A stretch of 64,000 nt of DNA from Candidatus Caldisaccharidevorator malaysiensis (GCA_025057575.1 JANXBO010000004.1:1-64000), one strand, 5' to 3'. Numbered from the stretch's first letter, positions 57,389-64,000 are shown. The notes: generated by a model from the sequence alone, not told the origin. Translations and numbers: made by a program.

Positions 57389-58252
57389 ATGATGAAGCCG
57401 AGTATTTTGATTATTACCGGTCTTTCGGGTGCAGGCAAGACGGTGGCTCTTCAGACGACCGAGGATCTGGGGTTCTATAGCGTCGACAACTTGCCCCCAA
57501 GGCTCCTTGGCACCCTGGCCGATCTTTGTGCCCAGTCCTCCCAGCCCATCGCAAGGGTCGCTCTCGTGGCGGATGTGCGAGGTGGTCAATTTTTAAAGGA
57601 CCTGAGGAACTCCGTTGAGTCCCTTCGGCAGAGGGGCTACGAGGTAAAAGTCCTCTTCTTAGAAGCCCCCGACGAGGTCTTGATTCGGCGGTTCAAAGAA
57701 ACAAGAAGACCCCATCCTCTTTTGGGGGAAACAAAAGACCTGGCTCTTGCCATCACGAAGGAAAGAGACTTGCTGTCAGAGGTCCGTGACCTTGCCGATC
57801 ATCGGCTGGATACCGGTTCGTTCAACCCCCACCAGTTGAGACAAGAGGTGGCGCGCCTGTTGAACCTGGGCAACGGGCAAGTGTTGACCATCCGGATCTT
57901 GACCTTCGGCTTCCGCTATGGGCTTCCCGCCGACGCGGACTTAGTTTTTGATGTTCGGTTCCTGAGAAATCCCAACTACGTTCCAGACTTGCGACCGAAA
58001 ACCGGTTCGGATCCAGAGGTTCAAGAGTTTATCTTTTCCGATCCCGATGCGGTGCGTTTTTTAAAACTTCTGGAAGAGTTTCTGGAATTTACTCTTCCCC
58101 GCTATCAAAGGGAGGGCAAGGTGTATTTGTGCATCGCTATCGGGTGCACGGGGGGACGACACCGGTCGGTGGCGGTCGGTCATTTCTTGATGGACTTCCT
58201 CTCTAAGAAGGGCTACTCTTGCCATATCGTCCACAGGGATGCGGATCGCTGA
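57389..58252 (+). CDS. rapZ: RNase adapter protein RapZ
   Basis: 'IITGLSGAGKTVALQTTEDLGFYSVDNLPPRLL', 'FDVRFLRNPNYVPDLRPKTGSD', 'IGCTGGRHRSVAV'. Confidence 0.95.
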   Translation: MMKPSILIITGLSGAGKTVALQTTEDLGFYSVDNLPPRLLGTLADLCAQSSQPIARVALVADVRGGQFLKDLRNSVESLRQRGYEVKVLFLEAPDEVLIRRFKETRRPHPLLGETKDLALAITKERDLLSEVRDLADHRLDTGSFNPHQLRQEVARLLNLGNGQVLTIRILTFGFRYGLPADADLVFDVRFLRNPNYVPDLRPKTGSDPEVQEFIFSDPDAVRFLKLLEEFLEFTLPRYQREGKVYLCIAIGCTGGRHRSVAVGHFLMDFLSKKGYSCHIVHRDADR

Positions 58253-58309: not shown

Positions 58310-59095
58310 TTGAATCTAACGGACCAAGAAAGAAACCGATACGCGCGGCACTTAACCTTGCTGGGAGGTGAAGAAGGACAGGAAAGGTTAAGGAGCAAGA
58401 CGGCCCTGATCACCCGATGCGGAGGTGTGGGAGGAGCCGCAGCCCTTTATTTGGCAGCCGCCGGTATCGGCCGGCTGATCTTGATTCACGAAGGGAGGAC
58501 GACGCCGTCCAATCTGAACCGAATGATCCTTCAAAGGGATGACTGGATTGGTAAGCAGCGAATTCTGCAGATACGCGAAAGCATCCATCGGCTCAATCGG
58601 GATGTGGAGATTGTCGGCGTGGACGGTGTTTTCGACGAAGAGAGGGGTCGGGATTGGGCATCATCGGCTGATGTGCTGCTGTCTTGCAGCCCTGTCTGGC
58701 AGGAACGGGTTGCCCTGAACGCTGTTTCTGTTGCCTTACGAATACCTTTGGTGGAAGCAGCAATGAACGGGATGGAAGGGACGTTGACGGTCTTTATCCC
58801 TGGTCAGACGCCCTGCCTTCGTTGCCTTTATCCCGTTGATCCTGATCCGGACTGGTGGGATCCTTGGGGCTTTCCGGTTTTGGGTTCCGTCGCGGGGCTA
58901 ACTGGCTGTTTGGCAGCGACGGAGGCGATAAAAGTCCTACTAAAGGATGGGGACCGCCCGTCGGGTCTTGTCGGACACCCTCTTATCAACCAGATGCTTC
59001 TTTTTGACTTAAGAACTCATCGGCATCGGCTGGTCACTATTCGGCGCCGGACGGACTGTCCATCCTGCCATCACCTTACGATAAAGGAGAACTAA
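58310..59095 (+). CDS. ThiF/MoeB/HesA-family E1-like adenylyltransferase
   Basis: 'RYARHLTLLGGEEGQERL', 'GGVGGAAALYLAAAGIGRLIL', 'SNLNRMILQRDDWIGKQR', zinc pair CLRC...CPSC; TTG start. Confidence 0.87.
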   Translation: MNLTDQERNRYARHLTLLGGEEGQERLRSKTALITRCGGVGGAAALYLAAAGIGRLILIHEGRTTPSNLNRMILQRDDWIGKQRILQIRESIHRLNRDVEIVGVDGVFDEERGRDWASSADVLLSCSPVWQERVALNAVSVALRIPLVEAAMNGMEGTLTVFIPGQTPCLRCLYPVDPDPDWWDPWGFPVLGSVAGLTGCLAATEAIKVLLKDGDRPSGLVGHPLINQMLLFDLRTHRHRLVTIRRRTDCPSCHHLTIKEN

Positions 59096-59103
59096 GAGGG
59101 ACG

Positions 59104-60366
59104 ATGACACCGGTAGAGCAGCCAACCGGAATAGCAGGGGAGATGTTGGCTGATGTCGTGGATATTTTTCAGTGCTGTATTTTGACCTGGGATTTTCTTC
59201 CGGTCGTCCTGCCCGCTTACCTTTTGGCGGGTGCGGTGGCTGCTTTCGTTCCCGTTGAGAAAGTCCTCAAATACCTGGGTTATCGGGCGCACAAAGCCGT
59301 TTCCTATGGGACCGCCGTTTTCAGTGGGGTTGTCGTTTCTATGTGCTCGTGCAACATTGCGCCTCTCTCTTTGAGCATCTACAAGAGAGGGGCGGGAATG
59401 GGTCCGGCTTTTGCCTTCCTCTTTGCCGGTCCGGCTCTTAATCTGGTGACGCTGGTCTGGACCTTTCAGGTCTTTGGGGGTCTTTTTGGTCTCTGGCGAC
59501 TGGGAGGAACCATCCTTTCCGCTCTCGTGATTGGTCTCGTTATGGCGATCCTTTTCCGGAAGGAAGAACTTGCCCGATCTGGGGCGGTGGCTGCCGAAAG
59601 CCAGCCTGTTTTCCTAAACAATGACCTGGAGAAGACCCATCCCTACCGAAGTTGGGTCGTGATGGGGTTGCTGTTAGCCCTTCTCCTCTTGGGGGCAAAG
59701 GGTCTTTTCCCTGCCATTCGCATCCCTGCCAGCCTTTTGGTCGGCATCGCCCTTGTGTTGACCCTGAACTCCTGGTTCACCCCTCACGAAGTGAGAGAGT
59801 GGCTCTTAGAAACCTGGCGGTTTATGAAGATGACCCTCCCCATTCTGATTCCGGCGATCCTCTTTATCGCCTTTGCCGCCCGCAAAGTGCCGATTGATTG
59901 GTTCACCGTTCGGGCTGAGGGTGAAAAACCCTTCTTTTTCCTCGGTGATAATTCCCTCAAGGCGACAGTGATGGCATCGGTTTTCGGGTCCTTAATGTAT
60001 TTCCCGATTCTGACAGAAATTCCCTTTGTCAAGGCTTTTCTAAAGAATGGGATGGGCGTGGCACCCGCAATGGCGATTCTGCTGGGCGGTCCAGGGGTGA
60101 GCCTTCCGGGAGCCATCTTGATCGCTCGTTTCTTTGGCTGGCAGAAGATGGTCATCTATGAAGTTCTGGAGATCAGCCTGGACGCTGCCGTTGCTTACAG
60201 TTTCGGAAGACTGTTCGGTGACTACCAGTGTCCGTGCCTAACGGGTGCTGAAAAACATGTCAACTTGGAATGGGTAACCGTCGCCTCGGTCCTCATTGCA
60301 GTAGCGGTGTTGGCGACCGTGCTGGTTGCCTGGCGACGGCACAGAAAGTCCCTTAGACAACCTTAA
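59104..60366 (+). CDS. YraQ/DUF318-like permease
   Basis: Two halves of TM helices; 'VVVSMCSCNIAPLSLSIYKRGAGMGPAFAFLFAGPALNLVTLVWTF'. Confidence 0.82.
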   Translation: MTPVEQPTGIAGEMLADVVDIFQCCILTWDFLPVVLPAYLLAGAVAAFVPVEKVLKYLGYRAHKAVSYGTAVFSGVVVSMCSCNIAPLSLSIYKRGAGMGPAFAFLFAGPALNLVTLVWTFQVFGGLFGLWRLGGTILSALVIGLVMAILFRKEELARSGAVAAESQPVFLNNDLEKTHPYRSWVVMGLLLALLLLGAKGLFPAIRIPASLLVGIALVLTLNSWFTPHEVREWLLETWRFMKMTLPILIPAILFIAFAARKVPIDWFTVRAEGEKPFFFLGDNSLKATVMASVFGSLMYFPILTEIPFVKAFLKNGMGVAPAMAILLGGPGVSLPGAILIARFFGWQKMVIYEVLEISLDAAVAYSFGRLFGDYQCPCLTGAEKHVNLEWVTVASVLIAVAVLATVLVAWRRHRKSLRQP

Positions 60367-60389
60367 GAGATGGGAGGTGGTCTCTACGA

Positions 60390-61223
60390 ATGCCGCTGGG
60401 GAAAGGGATTAAAGGGCTCGTTGTCGGTCTTTCTCTGCTGTTAGCGACTATTGCCGGGGCTCAGAAGAAACAGAGCCTTCATTTGTTCGTCCCTTGCGGG
60501 ATGATCGTGCCCTTCACGCGGATCAAAAGCGATTACGAGCAACGGACTGGGGTGAAGTTGGATATCACTTTTGACAATGGTGTGATGTTGGTTCGCCGGA
60601 TTAGGGACAAAGGAGAACGACCGGACATTTTGGTGGCTCCGGGCGAACTGGAGATACAGGAGATGATCCGTTCGGGTTTCATAGACCCCAAGTCGGTTGT
60701 TACCTTTGGGACCTTCCGGCTGATCTTAGTGGTTCCTGGAAGGAATCGGGCAAGGATACAGTCGCTGGACGATCTGACCAACCCGAGAGTTCGCTCCATC
60801 GTCATCGCCGACCCGAAACTCAATTCTGTTGGCTACTACGCCCGAGAGGCGTTGAAGGGTCTGGGGCTCTGGGAGAAGATAAAGGATCGGGTCGTTACCC
60901 ACTGGCACGCCCAGGAGGCGGTGAACTACATCTGTATGGGTCGGGTAGATGCCGGCATTTACTATGCCAGTTGTCCCTTTGACAGCGCCCCCGAGAAGGT
61001 GATGTCACCCACTTATCGGATTTTGGAAACCCTTCCCCTCTCGTCCCATCCCCCTGTCAGAGTTCAAGCGGGCATTCTCAAGTCATCCCGAAAGAAAGAC
61101 CTGGCGAAGCGGTTTTTGGACTATCTGTTGGAACCACGGACGCAAGCGACCCTGGCAAAGTTGGGGATCCCCAATTATCGCCAAACTAACGGGCAGAGGG
61201 TGAGTCTGAACCCGAAGCCGTAA
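60390..61223 (+). CDS. ModA-like substrate-binding protein with conserved cysteines
   Basis: Signal peptide; 'LFVPCGMIVPFTRIKSDYEQRTG', 'DILVAPGELEIQEMI', 'SVGYYAREALKGLGLWEKIKDRVV', 'GRVDAGIYYASC'. Confidence 0.8.
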   Translation: MPLGKGIKGLVVGLSLLLATIAGAQKKQSLHLFVPCGMIVPFTRIKSDYEQRTGVKLDITFDNGVMLVRRIRDKGERPDILVAPGELEIQEMIRSGFIDPKSVVTFGTFRLILVVPGRNRARIQSLDDLTNPRVRSIVIADPKLNSVGYYAREALKGLGLWEKIKDRVVTHWHAQEAVNYICMGRVDAGIYYASCPFDSAPEKVMSPTYRILETLPLSSHPPVRVQAGILKSSRKKDLAKRFLDYLLEPRTQATLAKLGIPNYRQTNGQRVSLNPKP

Positions 61224-61256
61224 AGAGAAGAGAGACGGTTGAAGGAGGTGTCGTTG

Positions 61257-63284
61257 ATGCGACGGGCTGTCGTTGGCATTCTCTTGATCTTCGTTTTGGG
61301 CACCGCAGCGGCAACACCCAAAGGGTCACCAGCCGACAAGAAGTCACCCGCCAAGGTAACGGTTCCCGTCAAGAGGGAGGGCTGGCGGGTCACCATCGGC
61401 TGGTCTGATGCGAAGGTAAAGGTGGAAGCCTTTTACCCCCTTGGTGTCGTCGGTGGCGAAGGGCACGATTGGGTCCTTGAGTATGCGATGAAGATCGCCC
61501 AGGCTCATCCCAAAAAGGTCCTCTTTACCATTTACGACTTTACGACGCCAAAGGGCTCCCAAGAGTGGCAGAAGAGAGGGCTGACCTGCGGAGCCTTCCT
61601 GATAGGCGGAAAGTTTTCCTACACCTTTAAGGGTGGCAAAACGGTCGCCTTTATGAGAAGCGAAGCCCTGGGCGGCTGGACCTTTGACCAATTAAAGACG
61701 GCAGTTGCCCAGGAAGTGGAGAAGGCGTATAAGAAGGAGCCGGCAGGGGGAAAAGGGACACCAGTAAAAAAAACCAGCCTAAGGCTTGAAAGCCGTTCGT
61801 CAACAGGATTTGTTGAGATCTATGTCCCGTGCGGTCTGGCGGGTCCTTATGGCGAGATCGCGCGAGCCTTTCAGAAGGCTCATCCCGACATCACCCTTCG
61901 CCCGACCGTCTCTGGGGTTGTGGCTCTTCTCAATGCCCTGCGGGATTATGCCAAGCCCGACATCTATCTGGCTTTGGGCACCTACGAGTTGACCCACCTG
62001 GCGGAGAAGGGGCGTTTCGTTGAGGGCAGTATGGTGACGGTCGCCCAGATGCCCTTGGGTCTGATCGTCCACCGGAAGAATCCGGCAGGGATAAAGACTT
62101 TGAACGACCTAACCTCTCCCCGGGTCAAAACCATCGTCACCTACAGTTACCAACTTTCCGGTGGTCGAGCCGCTAAGCAGGCTCTTCAAAAGGCGGGTAT
62201 CTGGGAACAGGTCAAGGGGAAAATCGTAACCCCGAAGGTGCCGGACCTGGCGAAGCAGATGTTGAAAAAAGGACAGGCAACGGTCGGCATCCTCTACACA
62301 ACTTGCCTGAAGGAAAGTTATGTCCCCGACCAGCCGCCCGTTGAGGAGAAGGACCTAAGAGTCATCCAGACCCTGCCTCCTGACAGTTATGAGCCGATCT
62401 ATGTGGCAGCGGTGCAATTAAAAGATGGTCCTAATCCCGAGGCAGCCAAACAGTTCCTTGAGTTTTTGAAGAGACGGGAACTGAGCCAAATTTGGAGAAA
62501 ATGGGGTTTTCGAGAGGTTAAAGGGGCACCTCTTGCCAGTTCCCGGCGGGGTCGCCTTCTCGTTTTTGCCGGAGCCGCCTTTCGCCCACCCCTGGAAGAG
62601 ATGGCAAAGGCGTTTCAGAAAAAATACGGCATTCCCGTCCAGTTCAACTTTACCGGTTCCAACTGTCTCCTCGCTCAAATCATCCTGACCCAAAAAGGCG
62701 ATCTTTTCCTGCCAGGCGAGGACTTTTATGTTGAGCAGGCAGAGGCACGGGGTTATGTGGTCAAGAAGGCTGTCCTCGGCTACTTCATTCCCGTGATCTT
62801 GGTGCGCAAAGGGAATCCGAAGGGGATCAAAAGTCTGGCTGATTTAGCCAAGCCGGGGCTTCGGGTCGGTCTCGGTGATCCCCGAGCGTGCGCCATCGGT
62901 GCGGTGGGTGAAGAAGTTTTGAAAAAGAACGGCTTGGCGGAAAAGGTCCGAAAGAATGTGGTCTTGAGAGCCGTAACGGCTCCGGAACTGGCGAACGCTT
63001 TGCGCCTCGGCGCTATTGATGCCTGTCTGAATTGGGACGCCATCGCCAATTACCCCTGGGTCCGTCCAGCAGTAGAGGTCATCACCATTCCACCCCACCA
63101 GAATCTGGTCACCTCCAATCCCCTTGCCATCTTGAAGACGGCGAGTCATCCTCAAGAAGCCGAATTGTTCTTTGAGTTTGCCCAAAGGGAAGGACAAAAG
63201 ATTTTGCAAGCCCACGGATTCACTACTCGCGATGGACTCCCAAAGGCGCTTCGCCCCTTCGTTCTCACCTCTGCAGGCAGGTGA
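61257..63284 (+). CDS. Three-domain protein: thioredoxin-fold-like N-terminus plus two ModA-like substrate-binding domains
   Basis: N-terminal 'VKVEAFYPLGVVGG...KKVLFTIYDFTTPKGSQEWQKRGLTCGAFLIGGKF'; domain 1 'IYVPCGLAGPYGEIARAFQKAHP'; domain 2 'LLVFAGAAFRPPLEEMAKAFQKKYG'; start ATG 61257 after GAAGGAGGTG. Confidence 0.75.
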   Translation: MRRAVVGILLIFVLGTAAATPKGSPADKKSPAKVTVPVKREGWRVTIGWSDAKVKVEAFYPLGVVGGEGHDWVLEYAMKIAQAHPKKVLFTIYDFTTPKGSQEWQKRGLTCGAFLIGGKFSYTFKGGKTVAFMRSEALGGWTFDQLKTAVAQEVEKAYKKEPAGGKGTPVKKTSLRLESRSSTGFVEIYVPCGLAGPYGEIARAFQKAHPDITLRPTVSGVVALLNALRDYAKPDIYLALGTYELTHLAEKGRFVEGSMVTVAQMPLGLIVHRKNPAGIKTLNDLTSPRVKTIVTYSYQLSGGRAAKQALQKAGIWEQVKGKIVTPKVPDLAKQMLKKGQATVGILYTTCLKESYVPDQPPVEEKDLRVIQTLPPDSYEPIYVAAVQLKDGPNPEAAKQFLEFLKRRELSQIWRKWGFREVKGAPLASSRRGRLLVFAGAAFRPPLEEMAKAFQKKYGIPVQFNFTGSNCLLAQIILTQKGDLFLPGEDFYVEQAEARGYVVKKAVLGYFIPVILVRKGNPKGIKSLADLAKPGLRVGLGDPRACAIGAVGEEVLKKNGLAEKVRKNVVLRAVTAPELANALRLGAIDACLNWDAIANYPWVRPAVEVITIPPHQNLVTSNPLAILKTASHPQEAELFFEFAQREGQKILQAHGFTTRDGLPKALRPFVLTSAGR

Positions 63285-64000
63285 GGGGGGCTTTCTTCTG
63301 GAAGCGCTGCTGACGGTTCGCCGGTCCGACCTATGGTTTGCGGGAGTCTTTTTAAGTTTCCTATTCCTTTATGCCGGCTTTATCCTGACTCTCGTCATTG
63401 CGGATGCCCTTCTCCCTTTTCGTCCCATTGAAGAGGGGGGTGCCAGTGCCGTCGCTCTCTTGTGGCAAGAAGAAGAGTCCAGAAAGTCCCTTTTTAATGC
63501 CTTCCGATTGAGCCTGGTCACGTCTCTGATCACCGCCTGCTTGGGGCTGTTGGTCGGACTGCCAGCTGCCTACGGCTTATCCCGATATCGATTTCCCCTT
63601 TACTCGCTGATTGACACGTTGGTGGACATCCCGATTGTGGTTCCCCCCTTGATAATGGGGCTAACCCTTCTCGCTGTCTTAAGGCAAACGGCAATAGGCA
63701 CGGCTCTTGATGAGAAAGTGGGCATCCTTTACAGCCCGAAGGGGATCGTCCTGGCTCAGTTCAGTGTGGCGTCCGCTTTTTCGGTTCGTGCCCTCAAAGC
63801 CGCCTTTGACCAGGTCAACCCTCGTTTTGAGCAGGTCGCCCGGAGCCTGGGTGCATCGCCATTCTATGCCTTTTTCCGGGTAACCCTTCCCTTAGCCAAG
63901 ACGGGGATCCTTGCCGGATTTGTGATGACTTGGGCAAGGGCAATGGGTGAGTTTGCCCCCATTTTGGTCGTTGCTGGAACCAACCCTGACACAACGGTTC
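63232..64000 (+). CDS. ABC transporter permease, ModB/CysT-like, truncated by window end
   Basis: Own translation: MDSQRRFAPSFSPLQAGEGGFLLEALLTVRRSDLWFAGVFLSFLFLYAG..., ending in 'RSLGASPFYAFFRVTLPLAKTGILAGFVMTWARAMGEFAPILVVAGTNPDTTV' (EAA-like loop). Confidence 0.88.
   Translation, partial: MDSQRRFAPSFSPLQAGEGGFLLEALLTVRRSDLWFAGVFLSFLFLYAGFILTLVIADALLPFRPIEEGGASAVALLWQEEESRKSLFNAFRLSLVTSLITACLGLLVGLPAAYGLSRYRFPLYSLIDTLVDIPIVVPPLIMGLTLLAVLRQTAIGTALDEKVGILYSPKGIVLAQFSVASAFSVRALKAAFDQVNPRFEQVARSLGASPFYAFFRVTLPLAKTGILAGFVMTWARAMGEFAPILVVAGTNPDTTV

Follow-up and report, generated by a model that had tools for sequence, protein, structure and literature searches.

Cysteine-bearing relatives of molybdate-transport proteins in Armatimonadota form an apparently undescribed system that points to a thiophilic ligand

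Among the described systems closest to the locus reported here, the SAO system of clostridia combines selenocysteine- or cysteine-bearing ABC binding proteins (SaoB and SaoX) with the permease SaoP, the thioredoxin-like protein SaoT and the efflux transporter SaoE, according to a published summary (PMC13188914) and to the NCBIfam family names. In ars operons, MIP channels count among the chief transporters, and ArsP is an exporter of methylarsenite (PMC6205960). AioX belongs to the oxyanion-binding group of periplasmic-binding proteins, and arsenite is linked to a cysteine in its pocket (PMC5908839). A ModA protein with engineered cysteines is represented by PDB entry 3axf, entitled 'Perrhenate binding to A11C/R153C ModA mutant'. 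In this work, we analyzed a 64,000-nucleotide stretch of DNA (hereafter the window; bases 1-64000 of contig 47 in the 2.78 Mb draft genome of Candidatus Caldisaccharidevorator malaysiensis) with a locus in which molybdate-transporter parts appear to have been rebuilt with cysteines, a composition that points to a thiophilic metal, metalloid or sulfur compound as the ligand. The system, found mostly in Armatimonadota, is apparently undescribed: our literature search found no report on a ModA-permease-desulfurase-ThiF combination in Armatimonadetes and none with the string CDENCPC. Its components belong to known families, and what look new are their combination, a clade of cysteine-bearing ModA proteins (Cys-ModA), a thioredoxin-like domain and a desulfurase tail.

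The ORF list agrees with the first-pass annotation, made from the sequence of the window, in that five co-directional and tightly spaced genes extend from 58310 to 64137, all on the plus strand. Successive genes are separated by 8, 23 and 15-33 bp, and the last two overlap. The third spacing depends on the start of the gene for the fused secreted protein (61257..63284; ORF and Pfam), for which a TTG at 61239 was called mechanically and an ATG at 61257 yields a signal peptide. The last gene encodes a ModB-type ABC permease (63232..64000 in the window, continuing past its end to 64137 on contig 47, with alternative starts at 63172 and 63232 among the contig ORFs) that belongs to the Pfam family BPD_transp_1 and has Mo_ABC_porter, WtpB and ModB as best NCBIfam matches. 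Around the locus, a RapZ gene lies upstream of ThiF at 57389-58252, an adjacency retained in the related genome G001 (L029), and a ferritin-like gene follows ModB immediately on its 3' side (64190-64606 of contig 47; L026:2191-2607) and recurs after ModB in G001 (L029:5353-5784); the genes further downstream on contig 47 are unrelated. Another weak solute-binding match (4.5e-8) was observed far from the locus, at 1567-1986.

The three binding modules of the locus all belong to SBP_bac_11 (PF13531) and score 93.3, 76.9 and 65.8 bits against the ModA equivalog TIGR01256 (cut-off 62.5 bits), which is evidence of homology and no proof of the ligand. The first of them, A1 (60390..61223; ORF and alignments), and the second, A2 (61803..62546; alignment and tree), had been described as sharing cysteines at matching places (VPCG near the start of the fold and YYASC or LYTTC later), and these cysteines, C36 (60495-60497) and C195 (60972-60974) in A1 and those at 61830-61832 and 62304-62306 in A2, proved to be conserved in homologues. 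In nine A1 sequences, P35, C36 and G37 as well as C195 and P196 are invariant, and since the relatives are only 31-67% identical to the window protein, the pairing of the two cysteines goes beyond chance. In a wider set of 44 A1 sequences, position 36 is cysteine in 38/43 (four Met and one Gln in the others) and C195 is present in 43/43; the first and second cysteines of A2 are found in 21/21 and 22/22 sequences, respectively. The five exceptions at C36 are confined to a single family, f20; every one of them retains C195, and each of their loci holds a second A1 copy that bears the cysteine. In these f20 loci (L095, L096, L097, L098 and L104) the A1 genes are paired, Met or Gln replaces the first cysteine in the first copy, and a small thioredoxin-type gene stands beside the pair. 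The remaining module of the fused protein, A3 (62547..63281; alignment), had been taken for an ordinary ModA; this was mistaken, as it carries a GS[NA]C motif in the second ligand loop (GSNC in the window, Cys at 62664-62666) whose cysteine is present in 14/15 sequences. A fourth class, A4, has five invariant cysteines, including a CPPC, and is absent from the window.

A maximum-likelihood tree unites A1 and A2 in a clade (support 100/99) that is separate from both ordinary ModA and A3, and each of the two is a single group within it (95/93 and 100/97, respectively). Among plasmid-encoded proteins, five ordinary ModA sequences show cysteine at neither site in the alignment, one of these five fragments beginning downstream of the first site, and the loop on which the second cysteine lies is missing from them. 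The plasmid search for Cys-ModA gave, among the matches listed, ordinary ModA-like proteins only (25-29% identity), and none was found in the viral contigs searched. When A1 was aligned to solved ModA structures, C36 matched Ala11 of the E. coli protein, adjoining Ser12, and C195 fell three residues past the position of Tyr170, where an inserted loop begins. Of the E. coli residues Ser12, Ser39, Ala125, Val152 and Tyr170, which we take to be those that contact the ligand, Ser12 is replaced by Gly37 and Ser39 by Gly or Ala in A1, Tyr170 is retained, and cysteines are gained. In the AlphaFold2 model of A1 (pLDDT 85), C36 lies where the first helix begins, its N-terminus being the element that usually binds oxyanions, and the prediction is poor for the loop that follows C195. 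The solved folds nearest to this model are those of ModA proteins, including 3axf. Judging from the alignment, both cysteines would face the ligand cleft.

The earlier account of the fused protein was incomplete as well, since it overlooked a thioredoxin-like domain at the N-terminus (61347..61802; alignment, profile search and predicted model). Based on about 34-36 sequences, this domain has one invariant cysteine (36/36; 61587-61589), located in an LTCG turn, and one near-invariant histidine (34/36; 61464-61466), which stands in place of the CxxC motif. None of its members has a convincing match to a Pfam family. By profile, it matches a designed thioredoxin (3e-5) and reconstructed ancestral thioredoxins (about 0.04), and its predicted model (pLDDT 91) resembles thioredoxins most, albeit weakly (best E 0.02, TM 0.4-0.6).

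At the start of the locus, the product of 58310..59095 is, as proposed from the sequence, an E1-like enzyme: a ThiF/MoeB-type E1 adenylyltransferase (ORF and Pfam PF00899, E 2.6e-44) with the ATP loop CGGVGG, the motif SNLNR and the zinc cysteine pairs CLRC and CPSC, whose best matches are MoeB-type. Its ThiF subfamily was found in 20/30 genomes carrying Cys-ModA. The permease encoded next (59104..60366; ORF and Pfam) belongs to ArsP_1 (PF03773, also ArsP_1/YraQ/CSC; E 9.7e-49, 166.5 bits against a cut-off of 32.3). The CSCN (59344-59355) and C-terminal CPC (60229-60237) motifs first noticed in it hold up in its relatives, where CSC is found in 23/23 and the C-terminal CxC in 24/24, and a CC (59173-59178; 22/22) can be added to them as a third invariant cysteine motif. 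Against the SaoE equivalog of NCBIfam, the permease scores 88 bits, the cut-off being 325.

Regarding the ModC ATPase expected past position 64000, none adjoins the locus on contig 47, but a matching ATPase is encoded at 79628-80776 of contig 36, and among the loci of this genome compared, it has the top score against the ModC profile of the system. It opens a second operon with overlapping gene ends (contig 36:79628-83335; L124:5629-9336), in which the gene after ModC encodes a cysteine desulfurase, the next a CxxC thioredoxin of the MTH895/ArsE type and the last NN, a protein with two of the thioredoxin-like domains. A relative of the same family (L137) has the identical desulfurase-thioredoxin-NN order, and the second operons of other families (L167, L168 and L178) have the gene order MIP, Thioredoxin_3, desulfurase, ModB, ModC, ThiF, together with a ThiS-type carrier in some of them. 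The desulfurase of the window genome ends in CDENCPCFFE. Within the same genome set, such a C-terminal C-x3-C-x-C (CDENCPC or variants) is found in 13/13 desulfurases linked to the system versus 0/7 of the others. Of the signs that sulfur delivery is part of the system, this is the clearest.

By hand count, A1 was found at E <= 1e-60 in about 31/291 Armatimonadota genomes from about 18 families; at E <= 1e-40 it was also found in 2/384 Omnitrophota genomes and in 2/388 genomes of the phylum of a Lentisphaerae record. The conservation of the gene neighborhood, on which the first-pass annotation had staked its proposal beforehand, is indeed observed: relatives retain the permease and A1 with the thioredoxin-like domain, A2, A3, ModB, A4 and ModC, with variation in fusions and completeness. 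ArsD, a DGC domain, MIP and a CobW-like GTPase variously adjoin the system in loci L035, L049, L052, L152, L167 and L168; MIP is linked in all of these except L035, and ArsD, with a score over the curated cut-off, in L035. A thioredoxin of the Thioredoxin_3/MTH895-ArsE type is linked in the window's own genome and in L152, L167 and L168. No ArsR, ArsC or ACR3 was recognized adjoining the locus. As further observations, a NapH/NosR-like Fer4_5 protein and a PQQ-type beta-propeller gene adjoin ModC in L052, L152 and L153 (from Omnitrophota and a second genome of the phylum of the Lentisphaerae record), an FtsX-like permease and ABC ATPase pair adjoins the system in two phyla (L052:11152-13184 and L108:10962-13143), and a lipoyl/biotinyl-type domain lies close to the desulfurase, alone or fused to Thioredoxin_3 (L167:6849-7100 and L169:12317-12877).

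At the level of sequence, the components are secreted proteins of the ModA fold (A1 and A2), a thioredoxin-like domain with Cys and His that is secreted as well, a cysteine-bearing permease, ModB and ModC, a cytosolic desulfurase and an E1, to which relatives add a ubiquitin-like sulfur carrier. The explanation we favor, at roughly even chances, is that they traffic a thiophilic metal or metalloid, perhaps an organometal, and that desulfurase, E1 and carrier form a sulfur relay dedicated to this task. Outside the membrane, the ligand would be captured through cysteines and relayed by Cys-ModA and the thioredoxin-like domain; the PF03773 permease would move it out of the cytosol in the manner of ArsP; ModBC with A3 might bring in a companion oxyanion or ligand, or the thiophilic ligand itself, alongside or instead of such export; and the relay would supply sulfur to convert or cage the ligand inside the cell. 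The conserved cysteines at what align as ligand-loop sites favor a thiophilic ligand, as do the fact that the first cysteine, where it is lost, gives way mostly to methionine, another soft ligand, with the second cysteine always kept, the separation of the A1-A2 clade from ordinary ModA and the engineered cysteine of 3axf. For the relay, the evidence lies in the desulfurase tail and in the frequency of the E1 subfamily among carriers. By analogy with the pocket cysteine of AioX and the precedents of ArsP and MIP, and with ArsD, MIP or an ArsE-type thioredoxin present in some loci, arsenic or antimony species would plausibly be the most economical guess for the ligand. Several points weigh against this favored explanation, namely the lack of recognized ArsR, ArsC and ACR3 nearby, the low SaoE score of the permease and a desulfurase, E1 and carrier that suit a sulfur pathway at least equally well. 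Besides, ArsD occurs in 24/291 genomes overall and in 4/30 carriers, the window's own genome having none and one carrier (L035) having it at the locus, so that it is not tied to the system; the argument for arsenic from ArsD was accordingly dropped except as evidence from one locus. A narrower version, which we put forward tentatively and consider rather improbable, holds that the dedicated desulfurase, with its putative metal-binding tail, the E1 and the ubiquitin-like carrier sulfurate a soft metal(loid), imported or toxic, and that Cys-ModA, the one-cysteine thioredoxin-like domain and the PF03773 permease carry the thiolated product across the membrane.

Reduced sulfur species are a serious rival to an arsenic-type ligand. 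The system might acquire sulfur (or selenium), Cys-ModA capturing thiosulfate or some other thio-oxyanion, or else sulfane sulfur, by its cysteines and the thioredoxin-like domain freeing the sulfur for the desulfurase-E1-carrier pool; the linkage of desulfurase, E1 and a ThiS/MoaD-type carrier in several lineages, the lipoyl-type domain in L167 and L169 and the suitability of the ModA/sulfate-type fold for tetrahedral anions would fit this, although a desulfurase, whose sulfur source is cysteine, would be superfluous if sulfur were imported, and the links with ArsD and MIP would be left unexplained. Furthermore, we know of no sulfur substrate in the permease superfamily, and on balance sulfur acquisition seems possible but doubtful. 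Secreted cysteine-bearing proteins with thioredoxin-like partners could instead form disulfides and act as periplasmic redox or folding proteins with neither a metal nor a sulfur ligand. This is very unlikely: the thioredoxin-like domain has a single invariant cysteine and no conserved CxxC, the exchange of C36 for Met or Gln while C195 stays is unlike the behavior of disulfide partners, and such a role accounts for neither the transporter nor the desulfurase. Uptake of molybdate or tungstate had been one half of the ligand proposal of the first-pass annotation; as a supply for pterin cofactors, in which case the E1 would take part in molybdopterin synthesis, it finds some footing in the homology to ModA, ModB and ModC, in the MoeB-type matches of the E1 and in the presence of MoaC in the window genome. 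However, MoaC is missing from 9/30 Cys-ModA carriers, including all those tested in families f11 (3/3), f25 (2/2) and f26 (2/2), which still hold the permease-A1-A2-A3-A4-ModC locus, several of the carriers without it being 95-98% complete; a complete ModABC is encoded separately on contig 35 of the window genome; and two ligand positions of ModA, Ser12 and Ser39, are replaced in A1 while cysteines are gained. The absence of MoaC from every genome tested of three families and the separate ModABC indicate that supplying Mo or W to pterins is not the common function of the system. We therefore rejected it for much of the family and give it scarcely any credence overall, whereas the other half of that proposal, a soft or thiolated ligand bound through cysteine, is supported by the conservation of the cysteines.

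Because the system persists without MoaC, ModA, ModB and MoeB annotations in these genomes should not be taken to mean that molybdenum is used. If the favored thiophilic explanation is true, little-studied bacteria possess a widespread system for thiol-loving elements, with a sulfur relay dedicated to and coupled with transport, and molybdate-binding proteins have undergone a natural conversion to cysteine ligation at the site of the engineered perrhenate-binding cysteine. Should the ligand be sulfurated by the relay, sulfur-carrier chemistry would be joined directly to metal transport.

Compared with known systems, the locus resembles ModABC in the fold and family of its three binding modules and in ModB and ModC, and differs from it in the cysteines at the ligand loops, the inserted loop, the linkage to a PF03773 permease and the occurrence without MoaC. 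With ars systems it shares the PF03773 permease and, in some loci, ArsD, an ArsE-type thioredoxin or MIP, whereas ModA-type proteins and a sulfur relay set it apart, as do the unrecognized ArsR, ArsC and ACR3 and the restriction of ArsD to one locus. Its logic resembles that of SAO, as both have Cys- or Sec-bearing binding proteins, an ABC permease, a thioredoxin-like protein and an efflux transporter, and SaoE is weakly matched by the permease. Membership in SAO was rejected on sequence, given that SaoE score and the fact that no model for SaoB, SaoX or SaoT was among the hits of the binding modules and thioredoxin-like domain at E up to 10; neither selenocysteine nor a MerB-like lyase (SaoL) was recognized in the ORF lists of the locus, and the binding proteins here are ModA-type and accompanied by desulfurase, E1 and carrier. 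AioX/ArxX proteins likewise have a periplasmic-binding fold of type II, and their pocket cysteine might have a counterpart in the cysteines that the alignment places at the ligand loops here, but AioX is a PhnD-like sensor whose Cys106 corresponds to Gly65 of PhnD (PMC5908839). Lastly, the ModA mutant of 3axf is a laboratory construct with its second cysteine elsewhere, yet its first engineered cysteine occupies the very site at which C36 occurs naturally.
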